DNA from: a virus
Virus record (IMG/VR): IMGVR_UViG_3300010430_000315
Location: 1-32,398 of that record
Reading direction: 5' to 3' (one strand)
DNA: 32,398 bases
Below, in pieces: positions 1,847 to 32,398 of this stretch (the first letter of the stretch is position 1; every line of letters begins with the position of its first letter). Both the position numbers and the translations under genes were made by a program. The notes beneath the pieces were generated by a model, which searched no databases, was not told the DNA's origin, and worked only from the letters and a program-made list of their open reading frames with translations.

Positions 1847-3403
1847 ATGTCAGACAGAATTGTTAAAAACCTGAACTTTGGGGAAGACGCTAAAGCCACG
1901 GTATTTAAAGGAATCAAGAAACTAACTAAGGCTGTTAGCTCCACTCTTGGAGCTAGCGGTAAGTGTGTTATCTTGGAAGATGGTAGCGGTAAGCCAGTTA
2001 TTACTAAAGATGGTGTAACGGTAGCTGATTCTATAGTTTTATTGGATCCTGTTGAAAACATGGGTGCTACACTATTAAAAGAAGCGGCTAGAAAAACAGT
2101 TAAAGAAGCTGGTGATGGAACAACTACGGCCACGGTGCTAGCTCACTCAATACTTAAACAAGCTTACAAGCTTGATAAAGATTACAATGATAGAGACTTG
2201 AAAAACGGTATAAACAATGCTGTTGAAAAAGTTGTAAAATACTTAGAGAAAAACTCTATACAGGTAACAGGTGATATGATTGATTCTGTGGCCACTATAT
2301 CAACAAATAATGATCCAGTCTTAGGTAAAGTTATTGGAGATGCTTTTAGGTCCGTAGGAGAGACCGGGGTGGTTATGATGGAGACTACGAGTGAGTCTGA
2401 AACCTATGTAGATGTAGTTGACGGTATTCAGTATGAAAAAGGTTTAACTAATTCTAATTTTGTAACAAACAAGGCTACAAAAGAATCAGTACTTGAAAAC
2501 CCTCTAGTGTTGCTAGTTGATTCACCTATAGAAAGTATCAGGCAGATTCAATCTGTTTTAGAGTACGTTATCAAAAACACAAAGTCATTACTTATTGTTG
2601 CTGATATAGATCAACCAGTTCTATCGGCTTTAGCGATGAACAAGGTTAAAGGAAATATAAAAGTTAACGTTATTAACGCACCTACTTTTGGTATTAACAA
2701 AAAAGATACTTTAACCGACTTATCCATGTTAACTGGTGCTACAATTATAAACGAAGATCTTGGAGATGACCTAGATCTTATATCAGTAGACAAGCTAGGT
2801 GAATGTGTTAGAAGTGTAACTGGTGAACAAGATACTATTATACAAATAAAAGAAACACCAGAAGAAGTAAATGAGCTTATTCAGAAAATTAAAGACCAAC
2901 TTGAAACTGAAAAATCTCCTGCAAACGTTATACGACTTGAAACTAGACTTGCACGTTTATCTGCTAAGGTTGCAGTTGTTAAGGTTGGAGCGAACTCAGA
3001 CATTGAACTTAAAGAAAAGACGGATAGAGTCGAAGATGCTATCTGCGCTACAAAAGCCGCAATCAAAGAAGGTATAATCCCTGGTGGGGGTATTGCTTTG
3101 CTCAACGCGTCTACATATATAAAAGCTAAAAACAAAGGTGAAGAAGTTTTACTAAAAGCTATAAAAGCACCCTACGAGACTATTCTTTCTAATGCTGGAT
3201 TAGAGTTGGTTTATCCTGATAGAAAAAATAGAGGACTAAATGTGGTTACAGGTAAAGACGTAAATATGGTACGAGCTGGCATTATAGATCCACTGTTGGT
3301 TACTAAAAGCGCTTTAAGAAACGCGGCTTCGGTAGCGACTACGATATTATCTACAGATTGTGTAATCAATAATTTAAGAGTTGGAGATGAAAGCAATAGG
3401 TAG
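1847..3403 (+). CDS. groEL: Phage-encoded GroEL chaperonin (Cpn60)
   Basis: Cpn60 family ATPase that encloses unfolded proteins in a double-ring cage with GroES. At 518 residues it is close to bacterial GroEL (548) and lacks the C-terminal GGM-repeat tail. Visible motifs are ITKDGVTVA at 52-60, the nucleotide-binding GDGTTTATVLA at 89-99 (D90 matches E. coli D87), RVEDA with D397 matching catalytic D398, and the GGG turn at 413-415. By hand alignment the apical substrate-binding residues are partly changed: Y199 to L, Y203 to N, L234 to Q, V263 to A and V264 to M; F204, L237 and L259 are kept. The start aligns with the bacterial N-terminus. groES overlaps its 3' end, which makes a classic chaperonin operon. 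It probably serves folding of phage virion proteins; clients are unknown. Confidence 0.95.
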   Translation: MSDRIVKNLNFGEDAKATVFKGIKKLTKAVSSTLGASGKCVILEDGSGKPVITKDGVTVADSIVLLDPVENMGATLLKEAARKTVKEAGDGTTTATVLAHSILKQAYKLDKDYNDRDLKNGINNAVEKVVKYLEKNSIQVTGDMIDSVATISTNNDPVLGKVIGDAFRSVGETGVVMMETTSESETYVDVVDGIQYEKGLTNSNFVTNKATKESVLENPLVLLVDSPIESIRQIQSVLEYVIKNTKSLLIVADIDQPVLSALAMNKVKGNIKVNVINAPTFGINKKDTLTDLSMLTGATIINEDLGDDLDLISVDKLGECVRSVTGEQDTIIQIKETPEEVNELIQKIKDQLETEKSPANVIRLETRLARLSAKVAVVKVGANSDIELKEKTDRVEDAICATKAAIKEGIIPGGGIALLNASTYIKAKNKGEEVLLKAIKAPYETILSNAGLELVYPDRKNRGLNVVTGKDVNMVRAGIIDPLLVTKSALRNAASVATTILSTDCVINNLRVGDESNR

Positions 3404-3647
3404 AAATTTAATTATAAAGAAACAAAAAGAAGGGACTACTAAAACAAAAGGTGGTCTACTTCTTGCTGAGTCACATAGAGAAGATATTAGATATATAGAA
3501 GCTAGTGTAATTTCTATTGGAAGTGATGTAGTTGGCGTTAAAGAAAATGATAAAATATTTTTTGATAGACACGCCGGTCACAAAATAGAAATAGATAAAG
3601 ACTTTTATCACGTTATTAAACTAGAAGATATAGTTGTTGTTTTATGA
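3387..3647 (+). CDS. groES: Phage-encoded GroES co-chaperonin (Cpn10)
   Basis: This 86-residue protein has the GroES layout: an N-terminal strand (AIGRNLIIKK), a mobile loop with GGLLL in the place of the GGIVL GroEL-binding tripeptide, a strand ASVISIGSDV, the KENDKIFF strand matching K-V-G-D-I-V-x-F, and a C-terminal strand around EDIVVVL. It would cap GroEL and form the folding chamber. I chose the ATG at 3387; a TTG six bases upstream is possible but adds only two residues. The gene overlaps the end of groEL by 17 bases, which suggests translational coupling. Length is slightly below the usual 95-100 residues, mainly in the roof loop. Confidence 0.9.
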   Translation: MKAIGRNLIIKKQKEGTTKTKGGLLLAESHREDIRYIEASVISIGSDVVGVKENDKIFFDRHAGHKIEIDKDFYHVIKLEDIVVVL

Positions 3648-5359: not shown

Positions 5360-5671
5360 ATGTCTTTTAAGCTAAAACCACCTATCGAGTGTGATAGTAC
5401 TCCAGTGTATCAAAAAGATATGGAAGATGGTGTTTTAGGTATGGCTAATAGAAATGGCACCATACTCGTGTCTAAAAACTTGAGTCCTAACAAGATGGAA
5501 GAAGTAATAGAGCACGAGAAAGTGCATATTGACCAAATGAAGCGTGGTGACTTGGATTATGATAGTGGTAGTGTCTACTGGAAAGGTAGAAAATACTCTA
5601 GAAAATCTATGATGGAAGGTGCTAAAAACCTGCCATGGGAAAAGGAAGCATACAACAAAACTAAAAAATGA
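5360..5671 (+). CDS. Small zincin (HExxH) metallopeptidase-like protein
   Basis: This 103-residue protein has HEKVH at 52-56 in a helix (EEVIEHEKVHIDQMKRG), the zinc-binding motif of gluzincin-type metallopeptidases. PWEKEAYNK near the C-terminus could supply a third zinc ligand (E94 or E96), as in small WExEAY-type peptidase domains of the DUF4157-like kind. No signal peptide is visible. It begins one base after the preceding stop, and its own stop overlaps the start of the holin gene by four bases (ATGA). It may process virion proteins or help lysis; both roles are inferred. Confidence 0.6.
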   Translation: MSFKLKPPIECDSTPVYQKDMEDGVLGMANRNGTILVSKNLSPNKMEEVIEHEKVHIDQMKRGDLDYDSGSVYWKGRKYSRKSMMEGAKNLPWEKEAYNKTKK

Positions 5672-17598: not shown

Positions 17599-20500
17599 AT
17601 GGCTGAGATTAAAAATACTTTTCTAAAGTCTAAGATGAATAAAGACTTAGACGATAGACTTATACCTAACGGAGAGTATCGTGACGCACAGAACATTTCT
17701 GTGGGTAAATCAGAGGACGCAGATGTTGGTGCTTTGGAAAACATAATAGGTAATGCTAATGTAACTAGTATTTTACCTTACGACTCTAGCTGTGAAATTA
17801 TAGGTTATTTTTCTGACGCTAGAAACAACAGGATAATAACATTTGTAACCAACTACACTGATCAAGATCCAGCTAGCCCAACGTATGTTTCAGACTTTAA
17901 CGTGACTAACCCTAGTCCGATAAAGGAGTGTCACATATGTGTTTACGACCAAAATAACCCTAACTATCAAAAAGTAGTTAGTGGTGAATTCTTAAACTTT
18001 TCCACAACTAATAAAGTTTTAGGAATTAGCTTAATAGAAGATCTACTGTTCTTTACAGATAATAGAAATCAACCTAGAAAAATAAATATAAGCACAGCCA
18101 TAAATGATCCTAGTTACTACGTTACAGAAGACACTATATCTGTAGCCAAGTACAATCCGTATGAACCGATAAGTTTATTAAAAAAAGTAGAACAAAAAAC
18201 AACGGCAGCTGCTTCAGGTGTTGATTCTCTTTCTTTGGATGACGCGAGCGATGTTGAGGTAGGAATGATTGTAGCTGCTAAAAATCTAGATCAAACAGCA
18301 GCTATTTCAGGTTCAGACTTTGTCACTGTTGGAGGTAAATCAGGTAACACGGTTACACTAGTCACTCAAGTCGGGGCTACAACTGTACCAGTACAATACC
18401 TAGCTACTGTTAGTGATGACGCTAATGTTACTTTTTTAAAGTCCACAATGACTAAAGAAGATTCATCGACTGGTTGGCCAGGTGATCCTGACTTGCTGGA
18501 AGAGAAGTTTGTAAGGTTTTCTTATAGATTTAAGTTTGATGACGGTGAGTATTCTTTGATGGCTCCTTTTACTCAAATAGCATACGTACCGAAACAAAAA
18601 GGTTATTTTCAAGAAGGAGACGAAGCGGCAGCTTATAAGTCGACTATTTTAGACTTCATGGAGAATGATATGAACAACATGGAGTTGTTGATACCTCTAC
18701 CATCAAAAGGAGTGGATATAGAATCACAATATAAAATAACCTCTATAGATGTTCTATATAAAGAGTCAGACGCATTAACCGTTAAAGTATTAGAATCTTT
18801 GTCTATAGGATCTATACCTTCTGCTGGTTTACAAACAAATATATACTCTTACCAATACCAATCAAGAAAGCCATATAAAACACTTCCTCAGTTTGAAACA
18901 ACTAGAGTTTATGACAAAGTGCCTGTTAGGGCTTTATCTCAGGAGACTTCTGGAAACAGAGTTATGTATGGTAACTTCTACGATAGATATTCATCTCTAG
19001 AGTCTATAGATTACTATGTTGGAGCTTTTGCTAAAAACACTGAGAACTTTGATTCTTGGGTGGAATACCCTAATCATAGTATTAAGCAAAACAGAAACTA
19101 TCAAGTAGGTTTTATTTTATCTGACAAATTTGGTAGGCAAACACCTGTTATATTATCACCGGTAGACTTATCAGGTTTGGATGCCGGTACCACCCAGTTT
19201 AAAGGTGGCTCAACTGTGTACAGGCCTTATTACGACGGCTCTACTCAACCTGACATACAGCAATGGTTTGGCGACGCTATTCAATTAGTTATTCAAAACA
19301 AGTTATCAAGCGGTATAAACGATAAGAATACTTTAAGTGAAGCTGGTCTATACGCTGTGCAATATCAGGACCCCAGTTTTTCTGGTATTGGATTTTCTAT
19401 CAGCGCATCTTCATTTAGCAGCACTTTTCAAACTCAACTACTATTTGCTTTAGACGCTACACATGCTAGCAACGCTAGTGTACCAAGAGTTGGTGACTAC
19501 TTAAGAGGTGAGTATAGAGACTATGTAAAAGTTACATCGACATCTCTTAACGCAGGAACTTACACGGTTAATGCAGACGGCGCTATAAGTAGTAGTTATT
19601 TACATAAAGATTTTTTACCAAATGACATAAAATTTGCTTACACGTTAAATCAAATTGGATGGTATTCTTATAAGGTTGTCGTAAAGCAAACGGAACAAGA
19701 GTATTACAATGTGTACTCTGCTGGTGCTATGAAAGGTCTTCCATATAATTACGATTCTTCGTCAGTGTCGCCAATTCTTGATGAGGATACTTCTTTTATA
19801 ACTTTACTAGGGGATAACATAAATAAAATACCTAGAGATTTAGCAGAGGTTGGGCCACAAGATAAATCCTTTAGAAGTTCTATAGGTTTGTATGGAAGAG
19901 TTCAAAATCACAATGGAAATAATAGTCAGTTTTTTCCAGGTAGAACAACTTTTAACACAACATCAATAGAGGACTTGTTCACGTTGTTCGATATCAGTAA
20001 TTTTACAAATAGTTTTGATAACCCTATACCTATAACAAACCCGCTTAATGCTTTTCATGGTTTCTTCAAGTCTGAATCGGATCCTTTCGTAGCCGAAATA
20101 AGCACCTCTAAAGACTCTAATTTACAGTTTGGTGCTAATAACAGTGTTTTAACACAAGCGGGTGGGGCTAACGCTAACGCTAACGTAACAAATTCAATAA
20201 CTTTACCAGTCGATACCGTTACTGGTGTCATAGAAATAGGTAGTATTATAACTTCTATCGCAGGTGTTCCGCAGACCGGAACAGTTGACTATGTAGTCAC
20301 CAACACCACAGGTGATTCTACTCCTACTTTAACGCTTAATAGAGAGATAACATTATCAATAAACGATGCTCTAGTTTTTTCATTAGAGACATATAAAGAT
20401 ATTGCCACTTTAGCTGTTTTAGAAACACCACCTGTTGAATCTTTGTTGGATATATTTTGGGAAACTACAACTACTGGTTTAATCTCTGATCTAAATGAAG

Positions 20501-22359
20501 ATATATTAACTGGATCTGATGCTCCAGTAGGTTTAACTAGTTTAGGTTTTATTTATAAAGAAAATCAAAACCCAAACGGCACTGGTATTGGAACTGGTGA
20601 TACCAATTCACCTTATATAACAGATGCTTTCTTCCCGCTTTCACCAGAAGGAGTTTCATTGCAAAATACACTTTTAAGTAGTTTTACTGTAACAGATAAC
20701 AACTCACCAACTAACGACGTAAGCTCGTTCTTTGATGTTATACAAGAAACAACTCCTGGAGCCACGTTTGGTTCGTATAGGTTTAAGTTGAACTCTAATT
20801 CTTATAATTACTTTTCTAATACTTTCGCAACAAGTGGTAGTTATAATTTCTCTATAAGCGTTAAAGATATTAACGGTGATATAGTTGCTTTACCTTTTAC
20901 AGGTTCTTTAACTAATATCGACCCATACATATCTATAGTAACCCCGCCTACTATGACACCAGGTAGCTCTCCGTTATCTTTAATAACAGTGCAAAAAGTA
21001 GATAGCTCTAGCGATAGCTTGCAGATAGGGGATATTGGTACTATTGTCAATGGTTCTTATAGAATAGATGAAGCAGTAAACCAAGTTGGTGTATTCTTTA
21101 CTAGTGTACCTCCAGTGCCTGTTAGTAACATACAAAATTCCGTAACTATAAATCACGAAACAGGACTTGCTTTTAGAGGTTATGACTGGGCTGAAGGTTA
21201 TTATGACTTTAACGTAGAAGTGAAAGATGCTTTAGTTTCTTTTTCATCTGGTCAAAGAGGTATAAGTTCGCAACCCACAGAATCTAACGGAACTGCAACT
21301 AGTATAAACTACGAGCAACCTATTAGAATTGTTCCTGGCGCTTGTAATTTAGACACCGGTTGTCAGTTTGACCCTGGTAGCGGAACTAGAGATCAAACTT
21401 TCCCAGTTCAAGTGCCCGGTGGAAGAACTTTCAAAGATTATGGTTGGAGATTCGGTTCTACTAATGGAGGTAATCCAGCTGGCTTCGTAGCAGAAACAGG
21501 TAATGTCTCTACTCTATCTAGCGATGGCTTAAAAAGAGGTACTGTTTTATTTGACTTAATGGTAGAATCTGAGAAAAGTACTAGCGATTTAATAGGTTAC
21601 TTTAAATGGAGAGTATGGTATAGATCTAATAGTTCTAACGCTTGGTCTATAAATAATGTCATAGATACCAATGGAGTCGATCTTAATACTAGTAATGGAG
21701 AAGTTGCCAGTGGCTCTGGGTGGATTCAACCAGGAGGTAGCAATGATTTTGCTTGTGTCTCCGATGTGTCAGGTAGAGCTTCACAAATACATATACCTGT
21801 TGCTTTATCAAAAAAAGGAGAATACTTTATACAAGTTAGAGGTTATAAAGATGTGAACTCTGGTTCAGTTTCAACTTGGATCAATGCTACAGATGCTAAC
21901 TACCCTACTTGTGTACCAGTTAAAGGCGCGAACATGATAAGTGGCACTGGTAGAGACGCTGACTGGTTTCAATACAATTTAGCTACTACAGGAAATTCAG
22001 ACCCTTCTACATCCTGTGCTGCATCGCTCACTGACACGGTTTACGCAAGAACTCCATACTCCCATGTTATGAGTCAGTTGTTTACAACTCTAGATTTAAG
22101 CATCGGTAAGACTGGTATTGAGAACTTTGGTGAAAAATATTCTTACGAGTATGCACCAGAAACGGGTAATACAGCCGGAGCTAGTATAGCTGCTCAGTAC
22201 GCGGCTGAGTTTATTAGTGATATAAATAATTTTAATACAGGTAGAACAATACGAGGTGTTGTTAAGAATATTACAGGTATAGATAGATTACCGTGTAATA
22301 CTTCTGGAACTTACCAAAACCTAGATGTTAAAGTGTACTACAATGAAAACTACTTGTAA
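17599..22359 (+). CDS. Large tail stabilization / nozzle (muzzle-like) protein
   Basis: At 1586 residues this is the largest complete gene here. The N-terminus FLKSKMNKDLDDRLIPNGEY followed by RDAQNISVGKSEDADVGALE is a hallmark of P22 gp10-like stabilization and crAss-like muzzle proteins, in which beta-propeller blades line the tail tube. Residues about 1-520 look like propeller and inserted beta domains (GYFSDARNNRIITFVT, LFFTDNRNQPRKINIST, SGNRVMYGNFYDRYSS). From about 850 to 1586 it has Thr/Ser/Asn-rich, beta-sandwich, Ig-like stretches that may project outward. A short ANANAN run is coded by GCTAAC repeats near 20167-20190. Some regions may be surface adhesins. The position before 22390, which reads like a continuation, supports a tail role. 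Confidence 0.7.
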   Translation: MAEIKNTFLKSKMNKDLDDRLIPNGEYRDAQNISVGKSEDADVGALENIIGNANVTSILPYDSSCEIIGYFSDARNNRIITFVTNYTDQDPASPTYVSDFNVTNPSPIKECHICVYDQNNPNYQKVVSGEFLNFSTTNKVLGISLIEDLLFFTDNRNQPRKINISTAINDPSYYVTEDTISVAKYNPYEPISLLKKVEQKTTAAASGVDSLSLDDASDVEVGMIVAAKNLDQTAAISGSDFVTVGGKSGNTVTLVTQVGATTVPVQYLATVSDDANVTFLKSTMTKEDSSTGWPGDPDLLEEKFVRFSYRFKFDDGEYSLMAPFTQIAYVPKQKGYFQEGDEAAAYKSTILDFMENDMNNMELLIPLPSKGVDIESQYKITSIDVLYKESDALTVKVLESLSIGSIPSAGLQTNIYSYQYQSRKPYKTLPQFETTRVYDKVPVRALSQETSGNRVMYGNFYDRYSSLESIDYYVGAFAKNTENFDSWVEYPNHSIKQNRNYQVGFILSDKFGRQTPVILSPVDLSGLDAGTTQFKGGSTVYRPYYDGSTQPDIQQWFGDAIQLVIQNKLSSGINDKNTLSEAGLYAVQYQDPSFSGIGFSISASSFSSTFQTQLLFALDATHASNASVPRVGDYLRGEYRDYVKVTSTSLNAGTYTVNADGAISSSYLHKDFLPNDIKFAYTLNQIGWYSYKVVVKQTEQEYYNVYSAGAMKGLPYNYDSSSVSPILDEDTSFITLLGDNINKIPRDLAEVGPQDKSFRSSIGLYGRVQNHNGNNSQFFPGRTTFNTTSIEDLFTLFDISNFTNSFDNPIPITNPLNAFHGFFKSESDPFVAEISTSKDSNLQFGANNSVLTQAGGANANANVTNSITLPVDTVTGVIEIGSIITSIAGVPQTGTVDYVVTNTTGDSTPTLTLNREITLSINDALVFSLETYKDIATLAVLETPPVESLLDIFWETTTTGLISDLNEDILTGSDAPVGLTSLGFIYKENQNPNGTGIGTGDTNSPYITDAFFPLSPEGVSLQNTLLSSFTVTDNNSPTNDVSSFFDVIQETTPGATFGSYRFKLNSNSYNYFSNTFATSGSYNFSISVKDINGDIVALPFTGSLTNIDPYISIVTPPTMTPGSSPLSLITVQKVDSSSDSLQIGDIGTIVNGSYRIDEAVNQVGVFFTSVPPVPVSNIQNSVTINHETGLAFRGYDWAEGYYDFNVEVKDALVSFSSGQRGISSQPTESNGTATSINYEQPIRIVPGACNLDTGCQFDPGSGTRDQTFPVQVPGGRTFKDYGWRFGSTNGGNPAGFVAETGNVSTLSSDGLKRGTVLFDLMVESEKSTSDLIGYFKWRVWYRSNSSNAWSINNVIDTNGVDLNTSNGEVASGSGWIQPGGSNDFACVSDVSGRASQIHIPVALSKKGEYFIQVRGYKDVNSGSVSTWINATDANYPTCVPVKGANMISGTGRDADWFQYNLATTGNSDPSTSCAASLTDTVYARTPYSHVMSQLFTTLDLSIGKTGIENFGEKYSYEYAPETGNTAGASIAAQYAAEFISDINNFNTGRTIRGVVKNITGIDRLPCNTSGTYQNLDVKVYYNENYL

Positions 22360-22389: not shown

Positions 22390-23733
22390 ATGTCAGCAAC
22401 TTTAGAAGTAAAATATTTTAACTCTTTTTGGATAAAGAAGATGAAGTCGATAGTTGACGCTGGAAATGCTGTTGTAGAAAACTTAGTTCCAGGCGCTTAC
22501 GCTTCTAGCACAGCGAGTCCAAACGAAGACTGGTACATTGAAGAAGCTAGAATACGAGGTGGCTACAATAACACTTCTGTAGATCTTGGTGTAAAAGCTC
22601 ACTTAGTGGAAGATAACACTAGGCAGCAACATAGATTTAACTCTATAATATACTCTGATATATTTAACTCTAGAACAGGTATAAATAGAACAAATGTTTT
22701 TTCTGTAAGTGATAACATAACTAAATCAGCTGATCCAGCTAATGGTAGTATTCAAAAACTATATGCTGAGGATACTAACTTAATATTATTACAAGAAGAT
22801 AAAGTCAGTAGAGCGTTAATAGATAAAGACGCTATTTACTCTGCTGAAGGTAACGCCGCCGTAACATCATCTACTCAAGTTGTAGGACAAATAGTTCCTT
22901 ACGCTGGTAACTATGGTATTAGCACTAACCCAGAGTCTTTTGCTGTTTACGGTTATAGAAAGTATTTTACTGATAGAAAACGTAACGTTGTTTTAAGACT
23001 GTCTATGGACGGTTTAACTGAGATATCATCTTATGGTATGAAAGACTTTTTTAGAGACGAACTAGGATCCCTAAATAACTCAGATAACATTATTGGAGGT
23101 TGGGATATACATAGTAAAAACTATACAGTATCTATACAGCAAAATGGAACTTACAAAACTTTAACCTTTGACGATAGTGTTAATGGTTGGACTAGTTTTT
23201 TAAGTTTTAAACCTGGATTCCTATTCAGCTTGAATACTTCTTTGTATTCTACCAATGACGGTAAAATATGGCAACATTACACGTTTGAGGATAACTCTAC
23301 AGAGAGAGGTAAATTCTACAACGTGTCTAATAATTCAACAGTAGAATTTGTGTTTAATGCTAATCAATCATTAGTTAAAAACTTTAAGACTATAAATTAC
23401 GAAGGTGGTAAAGATTGGGAGATGTTATCTATGCAAACATCAACTGATTCATCTCTACCTGTAGCTAAAGCTATAAACATACTTACACAGGCAAGTAATT
23501 TAATAGATTTGCAGAACCAGTTGTTACAGAATAATTTCAAAGTTAAAGAAAACAAATACTTTGCTAACTTAATAAATAGTACGATTTCTCAACCCGGTGA
23601 GGTTTTATGGGGTCAAGATGCTTCAGGAATAAAAGGCTTCTTCGCTACAGTAGAAATGAGTGTAGATAACAGTTTAGGTGGTAAAAAAGAACTATTTGCG
23701 GTTTCTACTAACTACGTAGAATCATCGTATTAA
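22390..23733 (+). CDS. Tail stabilization protein, second part (muzzle-associated)
   Basis: The 447-residue product contains the block RFNSIIYSDIFNSRTGINRT, GSIQKLYAEDTNLILLQEDK, VSRALIDKDAIYSAEGNAAV and YRKYFTDRKRNVVLRLSMDG, followed by GMKDFFRDELG. I associate this block with the distal half of stabilization/muzzle proteins in crAss-like and uncultured marine phages, where it can be fused to the N-terminal part. Here it is a separate gene 30 bases downstream. Blade-like strands (YTVSIQQNGTYKTLTFDD, KGFFATVEMSV) suggest a beta-propeller. It probably forms the tail nozzle with the 1586-residue protein. Confidence 0.65.
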   Translation: MSATLEVKYFNSFWIKKMKSIVDAGNAVVENLVPGAYASSTASPNEDWYIEEARIRGGYNNTSVDLGVKAHLVEDNTRQQHRFNSIIYSDIFNSRTGINRTNVFSVSDNITKSADPANGSIQKLYAEDTNLILLQEDKVSRALIDKDAIYSAEGNAAVTSSTQVVGQIVPYAGNYGISTNPESFAVYGYRKYFTDRKRNVVLRLSMDGLTEISSYGMKDFFRDELGSLNNSDNIIGGWDIHSKNYTVSIQQNGTYKTLTFDDSVNGWTSFLSFKPGFLFSLNTSLYSTNDGKIWQHYTFEDNSTERGKFYNVSNNSTVEFVFNANQSLVKNFKTINYEGGKDWEMLSMQTSTDSSLPVAKAINILTQASNLIDLQNQLLQNNFKVKENKYFANLINSTISQPGEVLWGQDASGIKGFFATVEMSVDNSLGGKKELFAVSTNYVESSY

Positions 23734-23750: not shown

Positions 23751-24581
23751 ATGACAGACGTTTTAATCGCACAACTTCCCGAAGCAGGAGAGTATGTACA
23801 AGGTTGGCTTGGAGCAGCTATAGGAATGGGAGGTAGTTTAATTAGCGGTATCTTTGGAGCTAGTAAAGCTAAAAGCCAAGCTAGAGCAGCAGCTAAAGAA
23901 AAAAGAAGACTATCAAGAGAGTTATCTAACTTGGAAGCGAACAGACAACCAGTAATAAATCCATATGAAGACGTACAAAGTGTGGCTGGCTTAGCTCAAG
24001 ATTTAAGCGGTAACATGACAAATCCAATGGCTAACTTAGGAGTTGCTACTCAAGCTGCAGAGATGCAAGCTGAAGAAGCTGATATGGCTCTAGCTAATAC
24101 TTTAGATACTATTAGAGCTACTGGATCAGGTGCTGGTGGTGCAACCGCTTTAGCTCAAGCAGCTTTACAAAGTAAGAAAGGTGTTTCCGCTAGCATTGAA
24201 GCTCAAGAGGCAAACAATGAAAAACTAAGAGCTCAAGGTCAACAAGACTTAGAGAGAAGAAAAATGGCTGAACAGCAAAGAATTCAAGGTATTGAAATGT
24301 CTGAGGCTCAACGACTACAACAAGCTGACGTGTCTGGTAAACAATTCGTGTACGGTCAAACAGAACAAAGAGAACTAACAGCTTTAGAGAGAAAACAAAC
24401 TGAGTTAGAAGGTGCTCAAGCTAGAGAGATGGCGGCTAATCAAGCTAGAACAAGTGCTATAACTGGAGCTATTGGTGCAGTTGGTAAAGGAATTGGAGGT
24501 ATGGCTAACGCTGGGGCCTTTGGGTCTAAAGTCATGGGTAGAACATATGCAGAACAACTTGAATACGAAAAAAATCAATAA
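23751..24581 (+). CDS. Internal virion / DNA-ejection protein, Ala-rich coiled coil
   Basis: This 276-residue protein has a glycine-rich hydrophobic stretch at about 19-40 (GWLGAAIGMGGSLISGIFGA), long Ala/Gln/Glu-rich helices through the middle, the segment ANTLDTIRATGSGAGGATAL, and a second small hydrophobic part TSAITGAIGAVGKGIGGMAN. Two membrane-active glycine-zipper-like stretches with a coiled coil in between are typical of small ejection proteins such as T7 gp14, and similar sequences are common in marine podoviruses. It would insert in the host envelope during DNA entry. It is followed after two bases by the next internal protein gene. Confidence 0.65.
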   Translation: MTDVLIAQLPEAGEYVQGWLGAAIGMGGSLISGIFGASKAKSQARAAAKEKRRLSRELSNLEANRQPVINPYEDVQSVAGLAQDLSGNMTNPMANLGVATQAAEMQAEEADMALANTLDTIRATGSGAGGATALAQAALQSKKGVSASIEAQEANNEKLRAQGQQDLERRKMAEQQRIQGIEMSEAQRLQQADVSGKQFVYGQTEQRELTALERKQTELEGAQAREMAANQARTSAITGAIGAVGKGIGGMANAGAFGSKVMGRTYAEQLEYEKNQ

Positions 24582-24583
24582 TA

Positions 24584-26131
24584 ATGAGCTATAGAAATCC
24601 AAAACAATTCGTAGATACAGAAACTGCTAAATACTATAGTGATCTTCAAAAGACTTTCTCTGGTATTACTGATGACTACGTTAAACAGTTGAACGCTAGA
24701 AGAGCTGCAGAAGCTAAGCGATTAGCAGAAGTAGCTGAGCAGAATAAAAAAATTACAATAGCGCGTAATAAATACGAGAACGAAACAGGCTCTGACATTA
24801 ATGGGGCTACAGCTATAACACCTAACTTATTTGATGACGATGCTCAAAAAAGAATAAGAGAATCAATAGATGTTGCTGCTGATATATCTACAGACATGTT
24901 TGCTTCTCAGGAACAAAAAACATACAAGCAAAACGTAGATGGTCTTAACGAGGTTATAATAAGAAATCAAACTGACTTAGCGTCATATAAAGAAGATTTT
25001 GAAGAAGCTTTAAGTAAACAAGGCCAGATGGGTGGTTACTCGGTATATAATGATCCTAAGCAAACAGCGTTTGTTTCAGGTGTTTTAGGCGGTGGTTTAA
25101 AAGGTAAAAGCTCTTTCAGCTTTGACTTAACTAAGCCCGGAGGAGCTGAGACTATGTATTCTTGGAAACAAGAAGGCGCTAGTGAAGGATTCTCATTATC
25201 TGGTAGCATGATAGGTGAAATAGCTGCAAACCCAGATAGAGATATACTTGTTAAAGTTCCAAATGAGGCTGAAAGCATGGAACGAACTATAAATATATTT
25301 GGTAGACAAACTGATGAAAAAGGTGACCCAACTGCCGGTGTACAAGAAGATCTTTATGTTGGTCAAGAAGAAAAAGTTAGAATTATTAGAGATGGAAACA
25401 AAGTAATCAAGCAATATTATCAAGAACCTAATGTGAATTTGTTAGGTGAAAAAATAAAACAAAAAGTTGTTGCTAGCGTTGAAGCTTTAAGTTCTAATAA
25501 AGATCTTGTGTCTAATGAGCAAATAGCCTTGTACAACTGGTTTCAAGATCAAAAAGCAGAAGGTAAAAAATCAGTGATTGGTTTCAATGAGTTTAATGAA
25601 GCGAGTCAAGAGGATAGAGATATTTTTTTAGATGATTTATCTGCTGAATACTCAGCTTATGCTATGAAAAAGTATTTTACAGGAAATACGGAGCGCAAAA
25701 CAGGCACAGAAGAGGTTATAGAACCTGAAGAAGAAAAGTTAACAGAAGGCGCAATAAAAAGAAAAATAGCAAGCGAAACTGCAGAAACCGTTCTCAACGA
25801 TATGCTTGAAAGTCCTAAGTCTTATTTTAAAGACAGAAGAATAAACGGTAAGAAAGTATCAGACGTAAGAATTTTACCTTCTACAATAGGTGAAGGTGGT
25901 GGAAAAGAAGGTCGTATACTTGAAATTGGCTATGAATCAGGTACTAGTACTAAGGGAGGAGAAAGAACTATATTTACAGATGAAATGACTTTTGACCTAG
26001 ATGATCCTGTTAGAGTTAGAACCCTTATAGATATGCTACCAGGAGACGATGCTCTTAAAACAGCTTTAAAGAAATTAACAGAAAAAAAGGAAAATAAAAC
26101 TAATATAGGTAATCTACCAGTAAAAAAATAA
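24584..26131 (+). CDS. Internal virion protein candidate
   Basis: This 515-residue hydrophilic protein has an N-terminal coiled coil (about 10-65, LQKTFSGITDDYVKQLNARR onward), a helical domain (NVDGLNEVIIRNQTDLASYK), a Gly-rich, beta-containing centre (AFVSGVLGGGLKGKSSFSF), a strand pair KVRIIRDGNKVIKQYYQEPN and an acidic/basic alternating C-terminal half ending in a Lys-rich tail. It has no catalytic motif or membrane segment. Its place between the ejection protein and the giant polyvalent protein suggests an internal head component (cargo), comparable in position to T7 gp15. I cannot name a family. Confidence 0.55.
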   Translation: MSYRNPKQFVDTETAKYYSDLQKTFSGITDDYVKQLNARRAAEAKRLAEVAEQNKKITIARNKYENETGSDINGATAITPNLFDDDAQKRIRESIDVAADISTDMFASQEQKTYKQNVDGLNEVIIRNQTDLASYKEDFEEALSKQGQMGGYSVYNDPKQTAFVSGVLGGGLKGKSSFSFDLTKPGGAETMYSWKQEGASEGFSLSGSMIGEIAANPDRDILVKVPNEAESMERTINIFGRQTDEKGDPTAGVQEDLYVGQEEKVRIIRDGNKVIKQYYQEPNVNLLGEKIKQKVVASVEALSSNKDLVSNEQIALYNWFQDQKAEGKKSVIGFNEFNEASQEDRDIFLDDLSAEYSAYAMKKYFTGNTERKTGTEEVIEPEEEKLTEGAIKRKIASETAETVLNDMLESPKSYFKDRRINGKKVSDVRILPSTIGEGGGKEGRILEIGYESGTSTKGGERTIFTDEMTFDLDDPVRVRTLIDMLPGDDALKTALKKLTEKKENKTNIGNLPVKK

Positions 26132-26139
26132 TTATAATT

Positions 26140-29100
26140 ATGTTTGAATTAGAAGGTGAACAATACTCATTAGAGCAAGTAACTTCAGCTGCGGAGCAAT
26201 CTAACATGTCTCTTGAAGATTACTTAGAAGAGTACAGTATTAAGAAATTGGAAGAAACTGTAGAAACAGTGGAAAAGCCAAAAGATGTTGTGGAGAAGGA
26301 TGCAACTGTAACATCGATAAAACCGGAGCAAGCATCCGAGAGTACGGAATTAGAGCAGGTAGATACTTCTTTGGTATCAGAAGATCCTGAACCAGTTGTA
26401 AGAAGAGGTAGAGCTCAAGTAAGGCAAGAAGAATTACAGCGTAGAGAAATAGCTAAAGAGCGAGAAATAGAAAAAGATTGGTCAAAAGATTTTGCTAAAA
26501 CGGTTGAGTCTCCTAATTTTTCAGACTTAAAACAAGATCAAATATTAAATATACAAAACAAGGCTATAGAAGAACTCACTTCTTTATACAAAGATGGGGA
26601 AGAGTATTCTTTCGATGAAACAGATATTAGATTAAAAGCTAATAGTATATTTGAAAATAAAGTATTACCAGAAGTTTCTTTAGAAAAAGATACTGCTTTA
26701 GAAAAATTTGTAAATGAAAAAGCGCCTATATTAAACCCGTATGCGGATTTTATATCTGATATATATACAGCTGGAGCGCAGGGACTTTCTACATCTGGTT
26801 TGGTAGATCCGACGTTTGAGCTGCTAAAAAAAGGATCCGGAAGTTCAGACGAAGACATTATTACGTGGATAGAAGCTAATAAGAAAATAGCTGCTGAAAA
26901 CATGCAGTCAGACGAGATGCGTGATTTTAATAGAATTTATGAAGAAAACGGATCTGGTGTTTTTGGTTTTATAAAAGGTGTAGCAAACAACCCGAGTATA
27001 ATGCCTTCATTGCTAGTTAGCTCTATAGCTACTCAAGTAGGTTCTTTAAGATCAGAAGAAGTTGCTTTGTCAGCAGCCGCTGGAGCAGGTACTGGCGCCA
27101 TTGTGGGTAGCGTTGTGCCTGGCTTTGGAACCATGACAGGAGCAGTTGGTGGTGCGATTGGTGGTGGAGCTGCTGCTATGGAAGCTTCATTAACGTTTTC
27201 AGAACTACTACAAGAAGAAGTAGGTGAAGATCTTAATTTAGAATCTGTTAAAGCTTTTTTTGAAGACGAAACTAAAGTTGCAGACTTGCAGCGTAAAGCT
27301 ATATCAAGAGGTGTAGCTATAGGATTAGTTGAAGGGTTAACAGGTAGTATTGCTAAAGGTGTAACTGGTAAAGTTTTAAAAGCTGGACTTAAAAAACCTG
27401 TAGCTACAGTAGCAGGTATAGGTGTTGAGAGTGTTGGTGGTGGTTTAGGTGAAGTTGCCGGTAGGTTGGCTGCAGACCAAGAAATGGATATTGCTGAAAT
27501 TGGATTCGAAGCTATTACAGGTACTACCACGGCGCCTATAACCGTGGGTTCTGAATTAATTAATTTAGATAATAAAATAGCTAATTACAAAATAAATAAA
27601 GAACTAAAAAATACAGACTTTAATAATATAGAGCAGGCTTTTAGTCCCGATGCTATTACAACAGAAGCTCAAGTTATAATTTCTCAAAATAAAAACGCTG
27701 AAACTATACTAGACAATAACTTAAAAAAATCTGTATTAAAAGGCGACATAACGCAAGAGCAAGCTGATCAAACTAAAAGAACTTTTGTAGAGACTCAAGG
27801 AGCCGTAAACAATATAAAACCTTTAAAACTAAACGATCAAGATCAAGCAGAGGCTGTTGGTTTAATAAAAGAAAAGAAGAATTTACTACAAGAAATAAAA
27901 AGAGTTAACGAGCCGTCACTAACAGAGGCTCAAAGCGAAAGAATAAGCGAAATAGATAGCTCATTAAAAGAAATAGGTAAAAAAGCTAAAGCTCAAGAAA
28001 CTAAAAAAGTAGAAAAAGTTGTTAGTCAATTAGAAAGTGTTGGCATTAAAGCGATGTCTACTGAAGAGGTACAAGAGTACTTACAATCTAAAAATCTGGT
28101 AAAAGATAAAGAGGATGCTGTTGTAAAATCTGGAGAAGGAGCATTTATTGTTCAAGATAAAAAAACCGGTGAACAAGAAATAATAGTAAATAAAGATTTG
28201 GGAAGTATATCTGATCCTTCACATGAAGCTTTACACGCTATTATATTTAAAACTGTAAACAAAAATCCCGAAGCTGCTGTTAACCTTGGTAAAGCTTTAC
28301 AGGCAGAGTTAAATAAAATAGACGAAAGTTTAATAAAAGATTCTGGTATAAAAAATAGGTTAGAACTATATAAGTCCTCCCCAGAATCTGTTCAAATGGA
28401 GGAAGTTTTAACCTTGTTTTCTGATGCTATAAGAAATGAAAACGTAAAGTTTGATGAAAATGTTTTTACCAAGATAGGTGATTTTATACGTCAAGTTTTA
28501 CAAAAAGCAGGTATAAAAGCTAAATTCAACAAAGGTAGAGATGTATTCAACTTTATTAGGGACTATCAAAAAAGTATAGAGTCTGGCAAACTTACACGTG
28601 GTCAAGTTAGAGCTGCTAAAGAAGGTGTTAAAGGTAAGCTAGTTACAGAGGCTCAGCAGGTTCAAGAAGCTGAAACAATTATAAAAGAATCAAGATCTGA
28701 AGATATTCAGAATGAAATAGAAGCACTAGAAGACAGTTATTTTGATGGAGAAATAGATGAATATCAGTTTGAGCAAAAACTTGAAAACTTAGAGAATAAG
28801 TTAAAGCAAGCAGAAAAAGAATCTGTAACAGAAAAAGCTGAAACCAAAGTAGAGCCTACTCAGCAAGTTGAAAAAATAGTTAAAGAAGCTACTACTAAGG
28901 TTTTCGAGAAAAAAGAAGTATCTGATAAGAATAAGCAAATAGCAAAAACCAATGATGACATCGTTCAAGAGATGGCTGATTTGGGAGCTAATAGAATATC
29001 AGAAATAAAAGACCCTAAAGCTAAAAAAGCTATAGTTGACAAGTTAGGTGAAAACAATATCGGAGCTGTCACTGAGCTAGCTAAAAAAGCAGCTGCAACC

Positions 29101-32100
29101 AGTAGGGATCTACCTATAGACGATAACTTAAAAGTTAACTACGAAGAATTCTTTTTAGGTTTTAGTGAAGAGTTGTCTGCGCTTATAAACTCCTACAAAG
29201 CTAACGTTGACGGCAAGAAAGTTCCTTTTGGCGCTTACATGAATCAAAATCTTAGACTTAGGTATGGTAATATACTTAACAGATCTTTAAAGGGTAAACT
29301 GAAAGGATCTGAAAGCTTGTCTAGTGACAAAAACATAAAGAAAGAAGTTGGATCATTTGCCGAAGAGTCTTTAAGCGAGCCAACTAGTAGAGATGAAGAA
29401 AGAGTATTAGATCGTATTGATGTTAGAAAGTTTGGCCCAGCGAAAGACAAAGCTAGTGAGATATCTAGCATAGTAGAAGTTGAAGATGGAGAAAGACCTA
29501 CATATAAACAATTAGCAGATAAATTTATAGAGCCTGTCTCTATGGAGTTATTTGATGTGCCTGGTAAGAAAATACAAGGTAAAGCAACTTTAACAGACGC
29601 TGAAGCAAAATCTCTACAAAGACTATTTGTTAGTCCTGATAATGTTAGAAAGCTTATTAAAACCATGCCTCCTTACAATGTTGCTACTAGCGAGACAGTA
29701 ATTGGTGAACAAGGAGAAATTATAGATGTATCTAAAGATGTTAAAGGTAGATCTATAGGTTTGTCAAATAAATTTATCAAGCAGTTTTACCAACCAGTTA
29801 ACAGAGCTATACCTGGCATCTCTAGTCCAAAAGGTAGGAGTTTAGGTGAAACTAGTCAAGGTCAAGTATATGAGTTGAGGCCAGAGTTCAAAGGTAGAGT
29901 CTCTAACGATGCTGTTAAGCAGATTCAAAATAGCGTAGGCGTCACAGAAGCTGGAGTTCCAAATGAAAAAATATCCGCAGCCAACAGAACAAAGTACGGT
30001 ACTACTCTTACTGGTTTTGCAAAGACTTATATAGCTAATGTCATAAACATAACAGGTAGATCTAAACAAACTGACAAACAAGAACAAGCAGATACTGGTG
30101 CTGGCAAATCTAGAGTAATGTTTAGTAAAGAATCGTCCTTAGAAGAAGGTATAGATCCAAAAACTTTATTAAGCACAAAAACTTCTAAAAAAACATTATC
30201 AACAAAACAAAACAATAAGAAGTCTAGTGAAATATTTCAAGCAACTGGGGTGTTGTTTTTGAATAATATTGGTGATGTAGATTCTTTTTTAAACGATGCT
30301 GTTGATTACTTAAAAAATATCAAACTAAAAGACAAAGATCTTCAGGATAATATAAGAAGAATAGCTACTGCTTCCAGTACTAGAGGTAATCTTACAGAGT
30401 ACTATAACTGGCATAAACTAAACAATAATAAAACGCTGAAAGAAACTTTAGGTATAAAAAAGCTTATACCTAAAAAGTGGAACAGTTCTAACGATATAGA
30501 AGCTGAGTATTATGACGGCACTGTAGAGGGTATAGAAGTAAAGATGAACTGGAGAGATATAATGGGTAGTGGTGGATTATTTTTTGATGGAGAAAAAGTT
30601 AAATCATACACCTATAACAACGGAGAACCTAAAGTAAGTGACGACATAGTAAATGAAATCAATAACAACACGGAAATAATAAACAAACTATTAACAGCTA
30701 CTGAAAACGCTGGCAAAGTAGAGTCTGTTGTTAAAGATGGAAAAATTGGTATGCCGTTCGCGTTGTTAAGCGATACAGAAAGTCAGGCTAGATCGAGCAG
30801 AAAAGAACTTAACAGACCTAAGTTTAAAGACGTATCAATGAGTATTGATCAAGTTCTAAAACACTATAAGAAAAAAGACGTTGGTTTATTCATAGTTGGT
30901 GATGAACTTTTCTACGTTCAAGATAAAAGAGGTAATTTTAAAGAAATGAGCATCCCAAAACTCAACACAGATGCTTCTATAAAACTAAGAGTTAAAACTA
31001 GTGGTATTAAAAATAGAAAAAGAACAAATGACTTTGTAGATTCTTATACTTTAACAGCTCAGTATCAGTTTGATAAAAAACCTTCAAACGGAATTAAGTT
31101 TTCAAAAGTATTAGCAGAAGATCTCGATAAAGCGTTTAACGATATTATAGAGAATAAAACAGGTATATCTAGCAGAAAGAGATACGGTATTGTTGAAGCT
31201 ATAACTAAAGGATCCAATAAAGGTAGATTTAATTTCTTTATACCGCCATCAGCAGAGGACTTTGTTGGTTTATTATACCCTACACTTGGCAAAGGCAAAA
31301 TTGGTGATGCTCAAATGTCTTGGTACAAGAAGAACTTAATAGATCCATACGCTGAAGGTATGAACAAGCTAAGTAAAGCTCGTGTGTACATTACAAACAC
31401 TTATAACCAACTTAAAAAACAGCTAGACATTGTGCCCAAGAACCTTACTAAAAAAGTAGGTGAAACAGATTACACTAAAGAACAAGCTATTAGAGTTTAC
31501 ATTTGGAGAAAGCAAAAAATGGAAGTTCCTGGCATGAGCAAAAAAGATGTTAACATGTTAGCTGATTATGTAGCTGGTAATGATAAATTACAGTCTTTTG
31601 CTGATCAACTAATAAACCTACAACTAGGCGATGGTTATGCTAAACCAAAAGTTGGTTGGCCAGCTGGAACAATAACGACTGATATACTTGAAGGTTTAAA
31701 CACTACTAAAAGAGCTAAATACTTGAGTAAGTGGCAACAAAATGTAGATGCAATATTTAGTGAAGATAATTTAAACAAATTGCAAGCTGCTTATGGTGTA
31801 AACTACAGAAAAGCGCTAGAAGGTTCGTTAGAAAGAATGAAGACTGGTAGAAATAGAAACTTTGCAGGTGACAGTATGACTGGTAGGTTTACTGACTGGT
31901 TAACTGGAAGTATTGGTGCTATAATGTTTTTCAACACTAGATCAGCTGTGCTTCAAACAATATCTGCTGCGAACTATATAAACTTTGAAGATAATAATAT
32001 CTTTGCGGCTGGTAAAGCTTTTGCAAACCAAAAACAATATTGGTCTGATTTTATGAAGCTTATAAACTCTGATTTCTTAAAAGAAAGACGTGGAGGTTTA

Positions 32101-32398
32101 CGTATGAATGTTAACGAAGCTGATATATCTGACATGGCTAAAAAAGGTGGAGTTAGAGGAGTTATTAGTAAGCTTTTGGAAATAGGTTTTACACCTACTC
32201 AAGTAGCAGATAGCTTTGCTATTGCCTCTGGTGGATCTACTTTTTACAGAAATAGAATAAATACATACTTAAAAAAAGGAGGTAAGTTTGAAAAACCACA
32301 AGTTATATTTTTAACAGGAGCTGCAGGAAGTGGTAAAACAACTGTTGCTAAAAACTTTGGAAAAAACTGGACCATCGTTAATAAAGACGTTGAAATGG
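26140..32398 (+). CDS. Giant polyvalent ejected virion protein (3' partial)
   Basis: The frame runs from ATG 26140 without a stop to the window edge: 2086 codons visible. Layout: an acidic, disordered N-terminal region (about 25-110); a glycine-zipper hydrophobic segment at about 308-345 (AAAGAGTGAIVGSVVPGFG, then GAVGGAIGGGAAAM); charged coiled-coil stretches at about 590-660 and 830-960; a zincin motif HEALH at 695-699 with E754/E755 as possible third ligand; FGAYMNQNLRLRYGNIL at about 1030-1046; FSK motifs at 1328 and 1654 that may mark domain joints; a helical LPD-type region with FNTRSAVLQTISAANYIN and FTPTQVADSFAIASGG; and a P-loop GAAGSGKT at 2060-2067. It resembles the 'polyvalent proteins' of marine phages, which are injected with the DNA. 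A role in the envelope passage and early takeover is inferred. Confidence 0.75.
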   Translation, partial: MFELEGEQYSLEQVTSAAEQSNMSLEDYLEEYSIKKLEETVETVEKPKDVVEKDATVTSIKPEQASESTELEQVDTSLVSEDPEPVVRRGRAQVRQEELQRREIAKEREIEKDWSKDFAKTVESPNFSDLKQDQILNIQNKAIEELTSLYKDGEEYSFDETDIRLKANSIFENKVLPEVSLEKDTALEKFVNEKAPILNPYADFISDIYTAGAQGLSTSGLVDPTFELLKKGSGSSDEDIITWIEANKKIAAENMQSDEMRDFNRIYEENGSGVFGFIKGVANNPSIMPSLLVSSIATQVGSLRSEEVALSAAAGAGTGAIVGSVVPGFGTMTGAVGGAIGGGAAAMEASLTFSELLQEEVGEDLNLESVKAFFEDETKVADLQRKAISRGVAIGLVEGLTGSIAKGVTGKVLKAGLKKPVATVAGIGVESVGGGLGEVAGRLAADQEMDIAEIGFEAITGTTTAPITVGSELINLDNKIANYKINKELKNTDFNNIEQAFSPDAITTEAQVIISQNKNAETILDNNLKKSVLKGDITQEQADQTKRTFVETQGAVNNIKPLKLNDQDQAEAVGLIKEKKNLLQEIKRVNEPSLTEAQSERISEIDSSLKEIGKKAKAQETKKVEKVVSQLESVGIKAMSTEEVQEYLQSKNLVKDKEDAVVKSGEGAFIVQDKKTGEQEIIVNKDLGSISDPSHEALHAIIFKTVNKNPEAAVNLGKALQAELNKIDESLIKDSGIKNRLELYKSSPESVQMEEVLTLFSDAIRNENVKFDENVFTKIGDFIRQVLQKAGIKAKFNKGRDVFNFIRDYQKSIESGKLTRGQVRAAKEGVKGKLVTEAQQVQEAETIIKESRSEDIQNEIEALEDSYFDGEIDEYQFEQKLENLENKLKQAEKESVTEKAETKVEPTQQVEKIVKEATTKVFEKKEVSDKNKQIAKTNDDIVQEMADLGANRISEIKDPKAKKAIVDKLGENNIGAVTELAKKAAATSRDLPIDDNLKVNYEEFFLGFSEELSALINSYKANVDGKKVPFGAYMNQNLRLRYGNILNRSLKGKLKGSESLSSDKNIKKEVGSFAEESLSEPTSRDEERVLDRIDVRKFGPAKDKASEISSIVEVEDGERPTYKQLADKFIEPVSMELFDVPGKKIQGKATLTDAEAKSLQRLFVSPDNVRKLIKTMPPYNVATSETVIGEQGEIIDVSKDVKGRSIGLSNKFIKQFYQPVNRAIPGISSPKGRSLGETSQGQVYELRPEFKGRVSNDAVKQIQNSVGVTEAGVPNEKISAANRTKYGTTLTGFAKTYIANVINITGRSKQTDKQEQADTGAGKSRVMFSKESSLEEGIDPKTLLSTKTSKKTLSTKQNNKKSSEIFQATGVLFLNNIGDVDSFLNDAVDYLKNIKLKDKDLQDNIRRIATASSTRGNLTEYYNWHKLNNNKTLKETLGIKKLIPKKWNSSNDIEAEYYDGTVEGIEVKMNWRDIMGSGGLFFDGEKVKSYTYNNGEPKVSDDIVNEINNNTEIINKLLTATENAGKVESVVKDGKIGMPFALLSDTESQARSSRKELNRPKFKDVSMSIDQVLKHYKKKDVGLFIVGDELFYVQDKRGNFKEMSIPKLNTDASIKLRVKTSGIKNRKRTNDFVDSYTLTAQYQFDKKPSNGIKFSKVLAEDLDKAFNDIIENKTGISSRKRYGIVEAITKGSNKGRFNFFIPPSAEDFVGLLYPTLGKGKIGDAQMSWYKKNLIDPYAEGMNKLSKARVYITNTYNQLKKQLDIVPKNLTKKVGETDYTKEQAIRVYIWRKQKMEVPGMSKKDVNMLADYVAGNDKLQSFADQLINLQLGDGYAKPKVGWPAGTITTDILEGLNTTKRAKYLSKWQQNVDAIFSEDNLNKLQAAYGVNYRKALEGSLERMKTGRNRNFAGDSMTGRFTDWLTGSIGAIMFFNTRSAVLQTISAANYINFEDNNIFAAGKAFANQKQYWSDFMKLINSDFLKERRGGLRMNVNEADISDMAKKGGVRGVISKLLEIGFTPTQVADSFAIASGGSTFYRNRINTYLKKGGKFEKPQVIFLTGAAGSGKTTVAKNFGKNWTIVNKDVEM

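Follow-up and report, generated by a model that had tools for sequence, protein, structure and literature searches.

The question raised by the window, that is, the whole 32,398-base virus contig analysed here (IMGVR_UViG_3300010430_000315), is what kind of protein is encoded by the giant gene that reaches its end. It was verified that the ATG frame of this gene (26140..32397) comprises 2086 codons and remains stop-free through the contig end, as an earlier note on this DNA had read it in proposing a single open frame of at least 2086 residues. The answer favoured here, with moderate confidence, is an ejection protein of giant size and modular build, a polyvalent protein that a crAss-related podovirus of Bacteroidota would carry in its virion; it would resemble the virion RNA polymerase (vRNAP) of phage N4, with a sigma-like domain replacing the polymerase.

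Module organization of the giant protein

A first scan of IMG/VR recovered 38 loci related to the giant gene, and a profile scan yielded at least 586 confirmed relatives; the module counts given below are based on the 112 relatives longer than 1800 residues. Judged from their sequences, the order of modules is fixed, running from a membrane part through a zincin, a sigma-70-region-2-like domain, a domain of unknown function and a swappable cassette to a C-terminal module. The features of the gene are the following:

26140..32398, plus strand: giant open reading frame, residues 1-2086, without a stop before the contig end
26995..27579, plus strand: Gly-rich hydrophobic membrane-like region with a glycine zipper, residues 286-480 (core 308-345), recognized by composition and by a similar stretch in many relatives
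27937..28779, plus strand: zincin metallopeptidase-like domain, residues 600-880, recognized by alignment, model and VIA-align neighbours
28222..28236, plus strand: HEALH zinc motif, residues 695-699
28402..28404, plus strand: Glu755, third zinc ligand, on the helix after the HExxH helix
28948..29325, plus strand: sigma-70-region-2-like helical domain, residues 937-1062, recognized by structural comparison, profile hidden Markov model (HMM) and hhalign
29392..30129, plus strand: domain after the sigma-2-like domain, residues 1085-1330, ending in MFSK, with homologues in 23 relatives by iterated HMM search
30118..30129, plus strand: junction motif MFSK, residues 1327-1330, from motif counts among relatives
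30130..31095, plus strand: lineage-unique cassette, residues 1331-1652, containing GIEVK
31096..31107, plus strand: junction motif KFSK, residues 1653-1656, from motif counts among relatives
31108..32280, plus strand: C-terminal module, residues to 2047
32281..32398, plus strand: truncated P-loop fragment, residues 2048-2086, interrupting the C-terminal module, recognized by motif and by comparison with relatives

The sigma-2-like domain and the invariant C-terminal module (residues ~1650-2047) had both been missed by the earlier note. Polyvalent proteins of phages and conjugative elements are a known general kind (Iyer et al. 2017), with the zincin-like metallopeptidase as their commonest component and a zeta-like kinase among their domains (PMC5512222), which makes the label "polyvalent" in that note apt. 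As in those proteins, unrelated domains are joined in one chain (here the zincin, the sigma-2-like domain, the cassette and the C-terminal module, with HAD and kinase modules in relatives) and the gene lies among late virion genes, following those for the large terminase subunit (TerL), portal, major capsid protein and muzzle. In contrast to the window family, the word "sigma" is absent from the main text of PMC5512222.

No Pfam model passes its cut-off on the giant protein, and a profile of the full-length protein returned only Beclin-1 from the PDB (E 0.51). No RNA polymerase domain was matched in Pfam, PHROGs or NCBIfam scans, and a PF00940 search for a single-subunit RNA polymerase in the records of the relatives also gave no match, but its controls were equally silent.

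Zincin domain

The HEALH zincin motif proposed by the earlier note is real, and Glu755 can be added to it as third ligand, since none of the 46 aligned homologues, some as little as 18% identical to the window, departs from H695, E696, H699 and E755. In the model of this domain, which has a predicted local distance difference test (pLDDT) value of 83, three strands accompany the HExxH helix (104-117 in model numbering) and a later Glu-bearing helix (160-176); a sheet, an HExxH helix and a Glu helix form the core layout of the metallopeptidases of polyvalent proteins (PMC5512222). Additionally, the 15 best VIA-align rows for the model are nearly all of zincin fold (LF-type, Z 6.7 to 5.7; ArdC, 3.8; MATCAP; YfcM). 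On the favoured reading, this gluzincin-type metallopeptidase domain probably trims its own giant chain, either in the course of ejection or afterwards.

The earlier note had named the loss of zinc-binding residues among relatives as a finding that would speak against its reading, and such loss was encountered in part: HExxH is retained in 86 of the long relatives and HExxxH in one, but 8 carry xEELFH, in which the first His is lost, and 17 are without the domain, most of them having another HExxH. The single HExxxH variant (HEFIGH, in L033) is of a type described for polyvalent proteins.

Sigma-70-region-2-like domain

Residues 937-1062 were first picked out by eye as resembling sigma region 2. 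For a model built from 21 sequences, sigma region 2 takes the first 13 VIA-align rows (Z 5.0-6.2), and the next unrelated row stands at 4.0. Separately from this model, an HMM of 59 phage-protein segments searched against 177,635 PDB sequences returned sigma factors as its five best matches (E 0.001, 0.037, 0.08, 0.19 and 0.19). When the sigma-like profile was aligned by hhalign with 27 sigma region-2 sequences from bacterial bins, a P of 6.9e-5 was obtained over 70 columns (prob 63%, score 29.0), against 0.1-0.6 for the controls (reversed profiles and the zincin, S-domain core, N, cassette and C regions). In 98 column shuffles the score did not exceed 11.1; a shuffle score of 126.6 in the first set was absent from a clean repeat and was regarded as a parsing artefact. 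The domain is found in 91/112 long relatives, and it lies downstream of the zincin in 80/80. A sigma-like element in giant ejection proteins appears to be new.

A stand-alone sigma-70-family factor of 250 residues is also conserved in the phages that carry the giant gene (L223-L226; 20 of 33 records); in G029 its gene is in two pieces, with stop codons between them. That these phages encode an ordinary sigma factor of 250 residues suggests that they work through the host RNA polymerase at some stage.

Membrane-like region and probable virion location

The glycine zipper seen by the earlier note was upheld: G...G...G matches number 5 in the giant protein, against 0.8 expected from shuffles (5 being reached in 2/1000), and the zipper lies within residues 308-345, which are hydrophobic and rich in Gly and Ala. 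It is kept in L003, while in other relatives and phage phi38:1 a hydrophobic stretch rich in Gly occupies about the same position without the zipper. Therefore, what is conserved, if anything, is insertion into the membrane.

The giant gene also ends the virion block in MW202828 (UOF82488.1, 3859 residues), in Elemovirus (QMP85072.1, 3694 residues) and in the Cellulophaga phages phi13:2 (gp127, 1990 residues; Pachyviridae) and phi38:1 (gp101, 1691 residues; Pervagoviridae), with gp101 of phi40:1 (Pervagoviridae) likewise standing in the same position after the same kinds of genes. Both gp100 and gp101 of phi40:1 are annotated as structural from "experimental MS/MS proteomics analysis" (MS/MS, tandem mass spectrometry), so that a counterpart of the window protein is a detected virion protein. 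A profile of the window N-region reaches phi38:1 gp101, which shares the membrane-like region, over 147-662 (E 1.7e-4, Z=5000), and the window zincin profile matches the Elemovirus giant "structural protein" at 1502-1684 (E 1.3e-7, Z=5000); tblastn of the giant protein or its N-region against named phages gave no match. Since a syntenic giant protein was detected by MS/MS in phi40:1 and profile similarity extends to the phi38:1 and Elemovirus proteins, packaging of the giant protein in the virion of the window's phage is probable by analogy. Crassvirus virions contain large cargo proteins that are ejected with the DNA (PMC10172136), and the proposal of the earlier note that the protein is carried in the capsid and injected is thus well supported by these analogies.

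Mosaic structure, cassette and junction motifs

Residues 1650-2047 of the window protein are matched in 112/112 long relatives, while the middle region is a patchwork. Residues 1-99 are ~90% identical to L002 and L004, residues 113-927 are 59% identical to L003, and residues 735-1330 return to L002 and L004 at 70-74% identity. This change of matching relatives along the chain shows modular recombination inside one gene. The expectation of the earlier note that more domains lie downstream held only in part: the ~270-390 further residues of complete relatives complete the conserved C-terminal module, to which whatever is left of the kinase would be added here.

The cassette is unique to the lineage of the window, its residues 1351-1550 being matched in 0/112 and 1551-1600 in 4/112 long relatives, and no homologue of it was found in Pfam, PDB or IMG/VR. 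Its assignment as a PD-(D/E)XK nuclease was considered and dropped, GIEVK having been recognized by eye only, without Pfam, PDB or IMG/VR support. HAD motifs (DFDDT or LTAR), which the window lacks, occur in 74 of the long relatives. A zeta/AAA_33-type kinase is nested in the HAD between DFDDT and LTAR in L034, L041, L042, L181-L183, L194 and L211, and stands alone behind the zincin in L161; these kinase modules exceed the Pfam cut-offs for Zeta_toxin and AAA_33. The nesting of a kinase in a HAD domain is a PNKP-like pairing by domain insertion.

The cassette of the window is exactly bracketed by MFSK and KFSK. The pattern [KR][FY]S[KR] was found in the giant proteins at 81 sites, on either side of the HAD and behind both the S domain and the zincin, which represent 33 independent contexts against 6-20 for eleven permuted motifs, an enrichment of about twofold. 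However, the related motifs [KR][IVLM]S[KR] and [EDQN][FY]S[KR] have as many contexts, and many relatives are without [KR][FY]S[KR]. Therefore, the recurrent KFSK-type junction motif, which appears to be new, is a pointer to possible sites of processing or recombination rather than a result. A search for cleavage sites by tripeptide enrichment was set aside, its top matches being words of conserved domains.

P-loop fragment at the contig end

The P-loop of the earlier note is real sequence (Walker A, GAAGSGKT, residues 2060-2067), but it is not a fixed part of the protein: it belongs to the last 39 codons (118 bases) of the contig, where Walker A and VNKD are the only kinase features, and the local segment from GG..FYRN to QQS[SA] is uninterrupted in 121/121 relatives. 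In the first scan no match extended beyond query residue 2058, most ending at 2047. A P-loop as core domain was thereby ruled out, no relative having one at that site. An exact-sequence search for the junction region found no second copy, and a degenerate FYRN..P-loop pattern, restricted to TTT-coded Phe, gave 88 stretches in IMG/VR, none of them a giant protein. The junction (32260-32300) directly follows TTAAAAAAAGGAGG, a run of seven A and then a Shine-Dalgarno-like GGAGG; slippage or misassembly could have occurred at this sequence.

The choice between a recent in-frame insertion of a module and an assembly chimera is near even. A chimera at the contig end, foreign to the giant protein and compatible with all other explanations, is given slightly less than an even chance. 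Confinement of the P-loop to the last 118 bases favours it, as do the uninterrupted relatives and the absence of a P-loop at the same site elsewhere within the TTT-limited search. On the other hand, the fragment is in frame and resembles the family's own zeta/PNK-like kinase modules (L041, L042 and L161; scores 79-82, including the VNxD motif), which favours real insertion of a roaming module; such modules occupy more than one site in the family (inside the HAD in most, alone in L161), and the interrupted loop tolerates length changes of 7-10 residues in relatives.

Genomic setting

The gene content identifies the window as the virion block of a crAss-related Bacteroidota phage, with the giant gene at its end. 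Before it lie genes for GroEL, a GroES-like protein, terminase, portal, capsid, ring-like proteins and a protein with a crAss muzzle C-terminal domain; crAss_MUZ_C scores above its cut-off, and TerL and portal match PHROGs. TerL is closest to that of MW202828 (Manatee Spring), with 63% identity; the Elemovirus phages of Flavobacterium follow at 45%, and podoviruses of Cellulophaga and Maribacter at 38-41%, with relatives in Pachyviridae and Pervagoviridae also matched. Metagenome bins holding relatives of the giant gene are labelled Flavobacteriaceae, Saprospiraceae, Crocinitomicaceae, Sphingobacteriales and others, labels that do not prove the host. Two genes directly precede the giant gene:

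23751..24581, plus strand: 276-residue protein with a weak match to a T7 gp14-like internal virion protein (E 0.0096, below the cut-off)
24584..26131, plus strand: 515-residue gene, by synteny only the positional counterpart of phi40:1 gp100, a virion protein by MS/MS

Among the other genes, phage GroEL (1847-3403) is followed by an overlapping GroES-like frame (3381-3647), and a protein of 103 residues (5360-5671) has an HEKVH motif and a weak match to a PHROG named metallo-protease. The genes at 17599-22359 and 22390-23733 match separate parts of PHROG 14478 (1474 positions); from these matches, a muzzle-type protein seems to be split over two adjacent genes.

Comparison with known ejection proteins

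The N4 virion RNA polymerase gp50 is a giant ejected protein with a membrane-spanning N-terminal domain, a transcription domain, an HExxH domain and a large helical C-terminal part (PMC12633501). The window giant has membrane-like, HExxH and helical C-terminal parts in common with it; in place of the polymerase of gp50, its putative transcription-related part resembles sigma region 2, and the order of parts differs. Likened by description only, gp45-gp50 of phicrAss001 (PMC10172136) are also large virion cargo, but that cargo includes RNA polymerase-associated proteins. The Elemovirus and MW202828 giants are syntenic with the window giant, the former sharing its zincin and the latter carrying HEFGH twice and resembling it weakly in the membrane-like region; they differ from it in other modules, with patchy blastp similarity. 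The Cellulophaga giants (1691-1990 residues) differ in having no HExxH and no detectable sigma-like domain or similarity to the C-terminal module.

Proposed mode of action and alternative explanations

On the favoured reading, and by analogy with the ejected proteins above, the giant protein would enter the cell through the tail, ahead of or with the DNA, its hydrophobic Gly-rich N-terminal part inserting into or crossing the envelope. The C-terminal helical module may serve in packaging or anchoring, since it is present in every relative. The middle domains would act in the cytoplasm at once upon entry: the zincin could trim the giant chain or host targets, the sigma-like domain might dock on the clamp of the host RNA polymerase and help to redirect or restrain it, and the exchangeable cassette (in many relatives a HAD phosphatase, either alone or with a zeta/PNK-like kinase; in the window protein a unique domain) may act on nucleic acid ends or metabolites.

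Several results weigh against this reading. Over the sigma-like part the pLDDT ranges from 31 to 77 in blocks of ten and the Z values are middling; Foldseek gave no significant match for the sigma-like model (E>1) or the zincin model, and the window does not reach the Pfam Sigma70_r2 cut-off. In hhalign the window-like subgroup by itself was without signal (P 0.18), the sigma factors encoded by the phages themselves agree only weakly with the domain (P 0.002), and no sigma-like match was seen in the giant proteins of the named isolates examined. Additionally, the counterpart detected by MS/MS shares only its N-terminal region detectably with the window protein and has no HExxH, and loss of the zinc site in 8/112 relatives implies that some lineages can do without peptidase activity.

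It is also conceivable, though unlikely, that the giant chain serves chiefly to deliver its parts, as a polyprotein whose zincin cuts KFSK-type junctions, either while still in the head or once the cell is entered, and frees the effectors, the sigma-like helices being a structural linker. The number of independent junction contexts and the exact bracketing of the unique cassette would fit this, and zincins of polyvalent proteins have been proposed to process them (PMC5512222); however, the modest enrichment, the equally frequent related motifs and the relatives devoid of the motif speak against it, as do the degenerate zinc sites and the N4 vRNAP, which is packaged unprocessed. Somewhat less likely still is a purely structural ejection protein, a channel or anchor like T7 gp16 or those of P22, in which the enzyme-like domains are decaying leftovers. 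In that case the invariance of the helical C-terminal module, the membrane-like hairpin and the loss of zinc ligands in some relatives would be expected, but the four zinc-site residues have stayed invariant in 46 zincin copies of widely divergent sequence, and HAD motifs and full kinase modules above Pfam cut-offs persist in the relatives.

Implications

The favoured ejection protein with a sigma-like domain bears on how phages of Bacteroidota that possibly lack an injected polymerase begin transcription, to which a sigma-like domain in the virion would be a directly testable answer. In its widest form the proposal is that hundreds of marine crAss-related phages inject a sigma-region-2-like domain beside a metallopeptidase and so take hold of the host RNA polymerase ahead of all phage gene expression, which is a tentative and rather doubtful extension. 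If true, such a virion-delivered device would do by another route what N4 and crassviruses do with injected RNA polymerases, and a sigma-like virion protein would connect polyvalent ejection proteins with those of N4 and crAss type. The mosaic family, with at least 586 loci in one collection, represents a natural catalogue of early-acting host-directed modules, and its repeated FSK junctions suggest where these modules are joined or cut.

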